This document shows, piece by piece, positions 16,598 through 20,940 of a stretch of 64,000 nt of DNA (position 1 is its first letter; each line of letters starts with the position of its first letter). Position numbers and translations under genes: made by a program. Below the pieces are notes generated by a model that had not been told where the DNA came from, did no database searches, and was given only the letters and a program-made list of their open reading frames with translations. This DNA is from Verrucomicrobiia bacterium (GTDB taxonomy: Bacteria; Verrucomicrobiota; Verrucomicrobiia; Limisphaerales; DSYF01). Where the stretch lies: positions 1-64,000 of the forward strand of contig DASTWL010000011.1 in NCBI GenBank assembly GCA_035765895.1, in the 5' to 3' direction.

Positions 16598-19510
16598 TCA
16601 CTGACACGCTTCGCAGGTGCCGCCGTTACGCATGGCTTCGATGGAGCAGGCCGCCTTTTCCGATTCGGTGTATTCGTGTTTTGGGGGCACGGCTGCCATG
16701 GCTTCGGATTGGCGGTCACGATGGGCGGAGTCAATGGCGCTGCGGTTCAGGGTGCGGAGATAGTAGGTGGTTTTGAGGCCGCGTTCCCACGCTTCACGAT
16801 AGACGAAGCTCGCGGTGCGTGCGTCGTTGTCGGCGAGCCAGAGATTGGTGCTCTGCGCCTGATCGATCCATTTCTGCCGGACGGCGGCACATTGGAGAAT
16901 CCACGTGGGCGCGATTTCGAACGCAGTTTTGTAGAGCCGCTTTAACTCATCGGGCACACGGTCAAGTTGCTGGATGCTGCCATCGTGCGCCTTGAGTTCG
17001 GCGCGCAGCGCGTCGTCCCAGAGCCCGAGCGCCAGGAGGTCACGGATGAGCGGGTCGGTCGTGCGAATGAAATCCCCGCTGAGGTTCGACTTGGTGTGGA
17101 TGTGTTTATAGACCGGCTCGATGCAGGGCGTGGTGCCCAGGATGTTCGAGATCGTCGCGGTGGGGGCGATGGCGAGGCAGTTGGAGTTGCGCAGGCCATG
17201 TGTGCGGATGCGTTCGCGCAACGCAGACCAGTCGAGGCGCGCGTCGCGGTTGACCTGCACGGTCCTGCCGCGTTCGTGGTCGAGCAGCGCGAGCGTGTCG
17301 AGCGGCATGAGACCGCGGTCCCATTTGGAACCTTTGAAACTGGAGTAGGCGCCGCGCTCGCGGGCGAGTTCCGTGCTGGCTTGGTAGGCGTAATAAGCCA
17401 CCGCCTCCATGATTTCGTCGTTGAAGGCGACGGCTTCCGGTGCATCAAAGGGAATGCGCTTCGCGTAAAGACAGTCCTGCAAGCCCATCACGCCGAGCCC
17501 GACCGGGCGGTGCTTGAGGTTCGCATTCCGGGCGGCTTCGACGGGGTAGAAGTTCAGGTCGATCACGTTGTCAAGCATCCGCATGGCCGTGGCGACGGTG
17601 GCGCGGAGCCGGGCGTGATCAATCGCGCCGTCCGCCGTGAGATGTTCGGCAAGGTGGATGGACGCGAGATTGCACACGGCAACTTCGTCCGTCGAAGTAT
17701 TCAAGGTGATCTCGGTGCAGAGGTTGGAGTTGTGAATCACGCCCGCGTGATCCTGCGGCGAACGCACGTTGCACGGGTCCTTGAACGTCATCCATGGATG
17801 GCCGGTCTCGAACAGCGCTTCGAGCATCCGCTTCCACAAGGCGAGCACGCGAATTTTGCGGCCAAAGAATTTTCCCTGCTCCGCCAGCGCCTCGTAATGT
17901 TTGTAACGCTCTTCGAAGGCGCGCCCGTGCAACCCGGCAAGGTCGGGCGTTTCGTTGCTGCGGAACAGCGTCCACGTGGCGTCCTTGGGCAGCACGCCGT
18001 CGGCGATGGCCTTGAGGCGCTTCATGAACAGGTCGGGTATCCAGTGGGCGGTGTTCATGTTGTGCGTGCGGCGGCGTTCGTCGCCGGTCTCCTTGCGGAG
18101 GTCGAGAAAATCCTCGATGTCCGTGTGCCAGAGTTCGAGGTAGCTGCACAGCGCACCGGGACGTTTACCGCCCTGGTTCACGGCAATGGCGATGTCGTTG
18201 CTGACCTTGAGAAACGGAATCACGCCACTGGATTCGCCGTTGGTGCCATGGATGTGGGCGCCCGTGCCGCGGACGGCCGTCCAGGAGCAGCCGAGGCCGC
18301 CGGCCCATTTTGAGAGCAGCGAGAAGCGGCGCCACGTCTCGGTGATGTCCTCGATGCTGTCGCCGCAGTAAAGCAGGTAGCAGCTCGACAACTGGCTGTG
18401 CCGCGTGCCGCTGTTAAAGAGTGTCGGCGTGGAACTGCACGCGCGACGGGACTTGTAAACCTGGTAGAACTCAATGGCCCAGTCTTCGCGGGAGCGTGCC
18501 GGAGCGTCGGGCGTTGCCCGGCTTGATTGAATGTTCTGCTTTTCATGCCGGGCAATGCCCGGCGTTCCACCCTCATTGATCGCCAGACCCATGGCCACGC
18601 GCATCCAGAAAATCTGCGGCGCTTCGAGGCGTTGCTTGCGATTGGAGACGGAATCGGTGCGAAGGTGAATCAGGTAACGGTCGTAGAGCGTTTGCAGGCC
18701 GAGAAAGTCAAACGCGAGATCAGCGTAGGGATCGAGCGCGTCCGCGAGCTTGTTCAAGTCGAACGTCGCAAGTCGTTCGTCGAGGCGTCCGGCTTCGACG
18801 CCGCGCGGGATGGTGGCGATGAAAGAGCGGCGGTGCGCCTCCTTGAGCCGGGCCATGCCGTCCGTGACGCGCCAGGAAAGCGTTTCCTCGTAGATGAACG
18901 TCAGCAGAATCCGGCCGGCGAAGAAACGGCTGTCGGCGTCGAGATCGAGCAGCGACTTGGCGTTGAGAACGATGGTGTCGCGGCGTTCCTCGGGCGACAG
19001 CGCGAGGGAGACGCTGCGGAGCAGGCGTTCGATGAGCTGTGCCTCGTTCAGGACGAGTTGGAGGCCGAGCCGGGCGAAGCTCACGCGGGCGCGCACGTCG
19101 GCAAGCAGTTCGCCGGGAACCAGCTCAGGCTGCTCGGGCGCGGGATGCTGCCGCAACGCCTCGGCTTCGCGCAGCGTGACGCGCCGGGCGCGTTCGCGGG
19201 CGTGGGCGAGTGCGATCTTCGGATGGCCAAGTTCAATGAGCAAATCCTCGACGAGCGCGCAGAGGTCTTCGTGGTGCAGCAACGACGGGCGGTCTCGACG
19301 CAGGCGGAACTCGATTTCGGCGCGGGCTTGTTGCGGCAGCGATCCGACCGGGGTGACGGCAATCAGGCAGGCGCGCTCGACGGCATCCTCGATCTTGTCG
19401 CCGCGCCACGGGACGATCTCTTCGGGCGCTCCGGGCAGGGCGGGTTCGATGATGCGGGGCAAAGCGCCGGTGGATTCGGCGACGGCGGGGAAGAGTTCGG
19501 TGGTGGGCAT
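16598..19510 (-). CDS. nrdA: Ribonucleoside-diphosphate reductase alpha subunit (class I)
   Basis: 970 aa. An ATP-cone occupies about residues 30-120 ('EEIVPWRGDKIEDAVERACL'). The catalytic barrel has the first redox Cys in 'SQLSSCYLLYC' (about 377), the N-x-C-x-E centre in 'HNSNLCTEITLNT' (about 595) and its partner Cys in 'EVAVCNLAS', 'TYYLRTLNRSA' for radical transfer, and the C-terminal pair CEAC (966-969). It reduces NDPs to dNDPs with NrdB. It lies downstream of nrdB in the same direction, 158 bp apart, so both fall under the upstream cobalamin riboswitch. Odd: residues about 312-340 (GGTPGIARHEKQNIQSSRAT, then PDAPARSRED) interrupt 'MGLAINE...WAIEFYQVY', which is normally contiguous. 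They are encoded by an inserted double-hairpin repeat (18501-18568). Confidence 0.96.
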   Translation of the reverse strand: MPTTELFPAVAESTGALPRIIEPALPGAPEEIVPWRGDKIEDAVERACLIAVTPVGSLPQQARAEIEFRLRRDRPSLLHHEDLCALVEDLLIELGHPKIALAHARERARRVTLREAEALRQHPAPEQPELVPGELLADVRARVSFARLGLQLVLNEAQLIERLLRSVSLALSPEERRDTIVLNAKSLLDLDADSRFFAGRILLTFIYEETLSWRVTDGMARLKEAHRRSFIATIPRGVEAGRLDERLATFDLNKLADALDPYADLAFDFLGLQTLYDRYLIHLRTDSVSNRKQRLEAPQIFWMRVAMGLAINEGGTPGIARHEKQNIQSSRATPDAPARSREDWAIEFYQVYKSRRACSSTPTLFNSGTRHSQLSSCYLLYCGDSIEDITETWRRFSLLSKWAGGLGCSWTAVRGTGAHIHGTNGESSGVIPFLKVSNDIAIAVNQGGKRPGALCSYLELWHTDIEDFLDLRKETGDERRRTHNMNTAHWIPDLFMKRLKAIADGVLPKDATWTLFRSNETPDLAGLHGRAFEERYKHYEALAEQGKFFGRKIRVLALWKRMLEALFETGHPWMTFKDPCNVRSPQDHAGVIHNSNLCTEITLNTSTDEVAVCNLASIHLAEHLTADGAIDHARLRATVATAMRMLDNVIDLNFYPVEAARNANLKHRPVGLGVMGLQDCLYAKRIPFDAPEAVAFNDEIMEAVAYYAYQASTELARERGAYSSFKGSKWDRGLMPLDTLALLDHERGRTVQVNRDARLDWSALRERIRTHGLRNSNCLAIAPTATISNILGTTPCIEPVYKHIHTKSNLSGDFIRTTDPLIRDLLALGLWDDALRAELKAHDGSIQQLDRVPDELKRLYKTAFEIAPTWILQCAAVRQKWIDQAQSTNLWLADNDARTASFVYREAWERGLKTTYYLRTLNRSAIDSAHRDRQSEAMAAVPPKHEYTESEKAACSIEAMRNGGTCEACQ
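18501..18568. repeat. BIME-like double-hairpin element inside nrdA
   Basis: Two 24-bp arms (18501-18524 and 18545-18568) are inverted copies matching at 20 of 24 positions around a 20-nt spacer. Each arm is itself a hairpin with a 3-nt loop: CGGGC GTT GCCCG (18508-18520) and GCCGGGC AAT GCCCGGC (18547-18563). It adds roughly 25 codons without breaking the nrdA frame. Confidence 0.8.
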
Positions 19511-19668: not shown

Positions 19669-20835
19669 TCAAACCAAATCATCCTCCGCGGTGTTCTTCA
19701 CGCTGCCGCTGGTTTGGTATTCGGTGACGCGGGTTTCGAAGAAATTTTTTTCCTTCTTCAGGAAGATGACCTCATCGAGCCACGGGAACGGGTTCGTGGT
19801 CACCTTCGAGAGCGGCGCGAGGCCGAGGCTGGTGAGGCGGCGGTCGGCGTTGTAATCCACGTAGTCGAGAAACTCCTTCTGCGTCATGCCGACGGCGTCC
19901 TCGGGCAGGCAGTCGCGGACGAATTCCTTTTCCAGCGCCACGCCGTCGCGCATGAAGGTGCGGAGCTCCTCGCGGAACTCAGGCGTCCAGAGTGCGGGGT
20001 TCTCGCGGATTAATTCCGTGAGCAGGTAGCGCCCGAGCGCGATGTGGTTTGATTCGTCGCGCAACGTGTATTGGAACATCTGGCCGATGCCGGTCATCTT
20101 GTTCTGGCGGTGCAGCGAGAGAATCATTGCGAACAGGCCGTAGAATTGCGTGCCTTCCATGACCTGCGTGATGCCGAAGAGCGCCTTGGCAAACTTGCGC
20201 TGGTTCTCGACCTGGGTGAGGTCGAGGCCGCGCTTGAGTTCGGGCATGTGCGCGGTGATGAAATCGTTTTTGCGGCGGATGCTCGGGATGTCGTTGAACT
20301 TGGCGGTGACTTCGTCCTGGTCAATGTCGAGGCTGCCGATGATGTGCAGGAGCGAATCCATGTGGATGGATTCCTCGGCGATCCAGCGGAGCACGGCATG
20401 CTTCAGTTCGGCGGCGGTGAGGTTGTCCTCGATCGCGTGCAGGACGCTGTCACCCACGATGCCTTCCGCCGCGGAGAAGTAGCCTACGCCCATTTCGATG
20501 ATCCAGCGTTCCTTGGGCTTGAGCGCGCCGGAGTTCCACAGCGTGCAGTCCTTCGTCATGTCAATGACGTCGGGCTCCCAGTGGTTCGCCTTCATCTGTT
20601 TGTAGATGCGGTAGGCGTCGGGATATTTGAGCGGAAGGACGTTCAACTCGGGCGTGCGCGGACCGTTGATGACGCGCTTGGCGTCCTTGCGTGCGCGGGC
20701 GCGTTCGCGGTCGAGGCGGAAGGTTTTGCCGCGGAATTCGTAAATGACGAAACGGCCTTCCTCGCGTTCGGTGAAGTCGTGAGGCGGAAGGGCTGGCGGA
20801 GTGGTCGGGCGAACCGGTTCGACGATGGCGTTCAT
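19669..20835 (-). CDS. nrdB: Ribonucleotide reductase beta subunit, tyrosine-less metal site
   Basis: 388 aa. The ferritin-like core shows the metal ligands: E124 (in 'GYFSAAEGIVG', Glu rather than the usual Asp), E155 and H158 in 'WIAEESIHMDSLL', E227 in 'VMEGTQFYG', and E261/H264 in 'RDESNHIALG'. In E. coli NrdB the radical Tyr lies four residues after the first ligand His; here that position is Leu162. This, with the Glu ligand, points to a tyrosine-independent subclass such as class Ic (Mn/Fe cofactor, Chlamydia type), though another metal pair is possible. The C-terminal tail is short and Glu/Asp/Val-rich (NTAEDDLV), as needed to dock on NrdA. It is transcribed first in an nrdBA operon behind a cobalamin riboswitch. 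Confidence 0.93.
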   Translation of the reverse strand: MNAIVEPVRPTTPPALPPHDFTEREEGRFVIYEFRGKTFRLDRERARARKDAKRVINGPRTPELNVLPLKYPDAYRIYKQMKANHWEPDVIDMTKDCTLWNSGALKPKERWIIEMGVGYFSAAEGIVGDSVLHAIEDNLTAAELKHAVLRWIAEESIHMDSLLHIIGSLDIDQDEVTAKFNDIPSIRRKNDFITAHMPELKRGLDLTQVENQRKFAKALFGITQVMEGTQFYGLFAMILSLHRQNKMTGIGQMFQYTLRDESNHIALGRYLLTELIRENPALWTPEFREELRTFMRDGVALEKEFVRDCLPEDAVGMTQKEFLDYVDYNADRRLTSLGLAPLSKVTTNPFPWLDEVIFLKKEKNFFETRVTEYQTSGSVKNTAEDDLV

Positions 20836-20883
20836 GTTTTGGCTTCAACCGCGCGCCAACGCGGTCCATGCACGGAACGACGA

Positions 20884-20940
20884 AATAAAAACGCCGTTTC
20901 CGCACGGGCAAACGACGAGACGCCCGCGACTGGAAACGGC
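20884..20940 (-). terminator. Intrinsic terminator of the cobalamin riboswitch platform
   Basis: On the minus strand GCCGTTTCC (from 20940) pairs with GGAAACGGC (to 20893), followed by GTTTTTATTT. It lies between the riboswitch (ending at 21012) and the nrdB start (20835), the place expected for a transcription-attenuating expression platform. Confidence 0.75.

Follow-up and report, generated by a model that had tools for sequence, protein, structure and literature searches.

A class Ic-like ribonucleotide reductase subunit with leucine at the radical-tyrosine position and a cobalamin riboswitch in its leader in a Verrucomicrobiia bacterium

The window analysed here, the first 64,000 nucleotides of contig DASTWL010000011.1 from a Verrucomicrobiia bacterium, contains the two genes of a class I ribonucleotide reductase (RNR), both on the minus strand, as are all window features described below. 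The nrdB gene (19669..20835) encodes the 388-aa radical-generating subunit (R2), as assessed from its open reading frame, alignment and profile matches (PF00268, 221 bits; NCBIfam NF005550, over its cut-off). Directly downstream, nrdA (16598..19510) was identified by profile matches as the gene for the 970-aa catalytic subunit, which has the expected cysteines (SSC, NLC, AVC), a YY pair and a C-terminal CxxC. An ATP-cone was detected only below cut-off in NrdA (19.7 vs 25.8 bits), and none was found in NrdB. The nrdB 5' leader carries a cobalamin riboswitch aptamer (RF00174; 21001..21189), which scored 109.9 bits against a gathering threshold of 31.5 over model positions 1-189 of 189, and folding revealed a terminator-like hairpin between the aptamer and the nrdB start (20883..20940; GCCGTTTCC ... 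GGAAACGGC, then GTTTTTATTT).

The nrdB product retains all six metal ligands. Its alignment with the Chlamydia trachomatis R2 has zero gaps around them and pairs E124 (codon 20464..20466, site 1), E155 and H158 (ExxH motif E155-S156-I157-H158, codons 155-158, 20362..20373), E227 (20155..20157), E261 and H264 with C. trachomatis E89, E120, H123, E193, E227 and H230, respectively; codons 256-264 (20044..20070) include the last two ligands together with Y256, D260 and T257, the counterpart of C. trachomatis I223. The radical-tyrosine position, four residues after H158, is occupied by Leu162 (20350..20352), which aligns with C. trachomatis Phe127. The first-pass annotation had placed a leucine at the position of E. 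coli Tyr122 from the ExxH motif, and the gap-free alignment bears this out, ruling out a misalignment of that motif. Its observation that E124 replaces the usual Asp ligand of Tyr-type R2s also held; because the C. trachomatis class Ic ligand is likewise Glu (E89), E124 is the expected companion of tyrosine loss and not a second oddity. The electron and radical pathway residues W86 (20578..20580; C. trachomatis W51, E. coli W48) and Y256 (C. trachomatis Y222) and the C-terminal radical-transfer Y373 (19717..19719; C. trachomatis Y338, E. coli Y356) are conserved, as is the D260-E261-H264 motif. Sequencing error, chance and a pseudogene were ruled out by 80 different sequences that share the Glu/Leu pair and keep the remaining ligands. 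Codon 151 (20383-20385), which corresponds to E. coli W111, specifies Trp in the nrdB product and its nearest relatives; other Leu-type and most Phe- and Tyr-type relatives have Gln or His there.

Sequence and structure comparisons place the protein nearest to the class Ic R2 of C. trachomatis. The best PDB sequence matches were 4d8f (E 4.1e-80) and 1syy (4.2e-80), both from C. trachomatis, followed by 6y2n (4.4e-68), which has Phe at the radical site; all other PDB R2s matched at E 4e-32 or worse. An AlphaFold model built from a 32-sequence alignment (pLDDT 87.2, pTM 0.83) had as its best fold match the Mn(II)Fe(II) form of C. trachomatis NrdB (Z 43.2 over 331 residues, 38% identity), followed by 6y2n (Z 42.2), the E. 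coli class Ia and Aquifex R2s (about 37) and class Id (about 34). The protein resembles C. trachomatis NrdB (1syy, 4d8f, 4m1i) in its Glu site-1 ligand, its radical site without Tyr, its equivalents of W51, Y222 and Y338, its fold and its nrdA partner, but differs in having Leu for Phe127, T257 for I223 and Q230 for F196, a separate clade, a cobalamin riboswitch and only about 38% identity.

We compared these features with the signatures of the known R2 classes. In class Ie, metal ligands are replaced and DOPA is formed from the tyrosine (see also PMC8463856); here all six ligands are present and the radical site lacks Tyr. Class Ia and Ib R2s combine an Asp ligand with a radical tyrosine four positions after the ExxH histidine, and class Id pairs a Glu ligand with Tyr (PMC8463856); the nrdB product has E124 and L162, and so carries neither combination. 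Class Ib was further ruled out by a genome-wide search that found no NrdI. R2lox proteins lack the C-terminal pathway tyrosine, have Ala at the C. trachomatis F197 position and have no R1 partner (PMC3824934, PMC4118035), whereas the nrdB product has Y373, F231 at the F197 position and an adjacent nrdA. The tyrosine-less radical site, as in R2lox, might suggest a degenerate subunit or R2-like oxidase and not a working R2, but we regard this as highly improbable: ligands, pathway residues and the C-terminal Tyr are kept across the relatives that share the leucine, nrdA is adjacent, the gene is the sole R2 of its genome, F231 occupies the R2lox cavity position, and R2lox models scored far below class I models.

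The product has every sequence feature of the class Ic mechanism except that leucine is the replacing residue: L162, which cannot carry a radical, replaces the radical tyrosine, Glu is the first site-1 ligand, and Y256 and W86 correspond to C. trachomatis Y222 and W51. By the strict definition, class Ic requires Phe at the radical site (PMC3824934), and the protein falls outside the Chlamydia R2c group in our tree, in a separate starred Leu clade; for these two reasons, we call it class Ic-like and not class Ic. Leucine in R2c-type proteins was known before, since Hogbom 2010, as related in PMC3824934, documented Leu, Ile or Val at the radical site of some R2c proteins, and the nrdB product resembles these in its leucine. 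Our literature search turned up no Leu-type R2 whose cofactor had been measured, and on Verrucomicrobia with class Ic RNR it returned only PMC9816063, which speaks of class Ic for the chlamydial ancestor.

Relatives were drawn from three sets of genomes: 84,980 representing species, 288 from the phylum and 116 from the order. Among 182 relatives, positions 124 and 162 were Asp and Tyr in 72, Glu and Phe in 30 and Glu and Leu in 80, with zero mixtures; the identity of the acidic residue at 124 is thus perfectly coupled to the presence or absence of Tyr at 162. We computed a tree without these two columns by a quick search, in which the placement of two very long branches (L155, L164) is unsure. 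The Glu/Leu proteins, nearly all from Verrucomicrobiota, formed one branch (support 98), apart from the Chlamydia-type Glu/Phe clade, and the three combined states require four changes on the tree. The solved Glu/Phe R2 6y2n sits among Asp/Tyr proteins, which suggests that the coupled change probably arose more than once.

The Leu clade has about 30 clade-specific positions, including T257, one turn ahead of ligand E261 and Ile in others, and Q230, which adjoins F231 and is Phe or another residue elsewhere; both changes likely lie in the metal pocket. Y119 is a further such position, with Phe in the Glu/Phe proteins. On this sequence evidence, the Glu+Leu R2 is a settled lineage and no error, because it forms one well-supported clade with further pocket changes. 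Since the clade lies outside the Phe clade and has so many positions of its own, its metal preference could differ from that of Chlamydia. An R2 that relies on metal alone might then contain a dimanganese centre of the class Id kind, Mn(IV)/Mn(III), or another homometallic cofactor, which the pocket changes of the Leu clade would tune; class Id shows that Mn2 clusters are capable of this role (PMC8463856). We consider this unlikely, as in class Id R2s the Glu ligand goes with a Tyr and the best match to such a protein reached only E 1e-12, and as Mn/Fe class Ic is much the nearer in both fold and sequence. Somewhat less doubtful, though still improbable, is the broader proposal that the Leu-type Verrucomicrobiota R2s form a separately evolved metal-only subclass, with a remodelled pocket (Leu162/Thr257/Gln230), cofactor or O2 chemistry unlike the Chlamydia Mn/Fe centre and, in the subclade of the nrdB studied here, riboswitch wiring; if true, a riboswitch-wired cell would swap a cobalt cofactor for one of manganese/iron type.

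A tyrosine elsewhere in the protein could in principle do the job of Tyr122, and the first-pass annotation had named a tyrosine near the metal site as evidence against its reading. Alignment found none at the radical position. C. trachomatis likewise has Tyr at the positions of Y71, Y78, Y232, Y256, Y325 and Y373, but not at those of Y32, Y75, Y119, Y270 and Y328; of these last five, only Y119 sits on a ligand helix close to a ligand. Its position is Tyr in 78/78 Leu-type sequences and Phe in 30/30 Glu/Phe sequences, and Y256 is conserved, so that either might be proposed to bear a radical. However, Y119 is also Tyr in five Tyr-type R2s, and it lies on the E124-bearing helix at i-5 from that ligand, about 140 degrees round from the metals, so that by helix phase and homology it should point away from them; Y256 corresponds to C. 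trachomatis Y222, an electron-transfer residue that forms no stable radical (PMC4118035). We therefore judge a substitute tyrosyl radical very unlikely.

A tyrosine-independent metal cofactor, as originally proposed in the first-pass annotation, is instead the best reading, because the radical position lacks Tyr and the sequence features match class Ic. The nearest characterised enzyme is a Mn/Fe class Ic R2, with which the Glu ligand and radical-transfer residues agree, and in class Ic, tyrosine loss and the site-1 Glu accompany direct oxidation of the R1 cysteine by a Mn(IV)/Fe(III) cluster (PMC8463856, PMC4118035, PMC11883743). By analogy, the metal centre is most probably Mn/Fe, and its oxidation states and the activity of the enzyme would follow the same model: a dinuclear centre, with site 1 occupied by Mn and site 2 by Fe, would be converted by O2 into a stable high-valent cluster, Mn(IV)/Fe(III) as in C. 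trachomatis, and this cluster, not a tyrosyl radical, would oxidise the NrdA active-site cysteine via W86 and Y373. The additional electron required for cofactor activation would come through Y256 and W86; Leu162 would occupy the place of the radical tyrosine, and Glu124 would tune the metal site.

The leader provides a probable regulatory context. Its hairpin combines a base stem of nine base pairs with an inner stem (-29.2 kcal/mol) with GTTTTTATTT immediately after, and a comparable site occurred in 10/2000 shuffles of the leader; it is likely a terminator and the probable expression platform of the riboswitch. A pattern-based terminator scan missed it because the loop limit of that scan was 8. 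Within the subclade of this nrdB, the riboswitch lies upstream of nrdB in 9/13 loci, including this one and L004, L005, L007, L083, L171, L172, L173 and L174 (L004 and L173 have equal riboswitch scores and may be one genome); it was absent at threshold from L002, L003, L006 and L008, and no other scanned Leu-type or Phe-type locus had one at threshold. The genome holds two cobalamin riboswitches, the second (G000:C73:15278-15440, L198) upstream of a 361-aa open reading frame without a Pfam match.

A gene for the B12-dependent class II enzyme NrdJ is present on another contig of the genome. It lies within about 7 kb, on one strand, of genes for a Der/EngA-type GTPase and an Nramp-family (Mn/Fe) transporter (G000:C92, L197). 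That the genome encodes an Nramp-family transporter agrees with a Mn/Fe centre in the R2. No second, Tyr-type R2 was found in the genome, and a class III backup was ruled out since the genome lacks NrdD. NrdJ was over the cut-off in all searchable riboswitch genomes (this genome, G000, and G320, G375, G337 and G047), and G399, a riboswitch genome that is 76% complete, had an NrdJ fragment only. Most searched Leu-type Verrucomicrobiales-like genomes had no NrdJ over the cut-off. The link runs in one direction only, since the riboswitch is missing from some NrdJ-bearing genomes. One same-genus and one same-family genome have NrdJ and no R2 match, and the class I enzyme therefore looks accessory in the family. 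A B12 riboswitch likewise governs the class Ia operon nrdABS of Streptomyces coelicolor (Borovok 2006, related in PMC4991794), which, as far as that account goes, shares with the present locus a class I RNR operon under cobalamin control and an NrdJ in the same genome; unlike that enzyme, described there as class Ia, the R2 here is tyrosine-less and class Ic-like.

In our best reading, nrdBA encodes an RNR of class Ic-like, tyrosine-independent type that serves the cell in the presence of O2 when B12 runs short. The cobalamin-bound riboswitch would halt transcription ahead of nrdB, and without B12 the operon would be expressed and substitute for class II NrdJ when O2 is present. We thus consider it probable, with good though incomplete confidence, that nrdB encodes a functional class Ic-like R2 with the metal centre as oxidant and that nrdBA is repressed by cobalamin and replaces NrdJ in O2. 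The new element is the context, namely the cobalamin riboswitch and terminator-like hairpin ahead of nrdB and the co-resident class II NrdJ, which suggests a testable role for a metal-only class I enzyme as an O2-dependent substitute for a B12-dependent one. The Leu-type proteins represent a large clade of R2s outside Chlamydia that lack the radical tyrosine and are apparently uncharacterised, mostly from free-living bacteria, and the Asp/Tyr, Glu/Phe and Glu/Leu pairs, which never mix, offer a natural test of cofactor determinants.

Some Leu-type R2s (L002, L005, L006, L009, L014) come from MAGs labelled Akkermansia muciniphila, Chlamydiae or Fimbriimonadaceae; these labels may be wrong, the contigs may be mis-binned or, for L014, the gene may have been transferred. 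Two genomes, G116 (L100 / L144) and G207 (L122), have two tandem R2 genes ahead of nrdA. The second R2 of each keeps all metal ligands and the Leu, has Asn at the Y256 position and Cys or Phe at the Y232 position, and lacks the KKEKNFFE segment ahead of the C-terminal Tyr; it is possibly a non-radical partner subunit.
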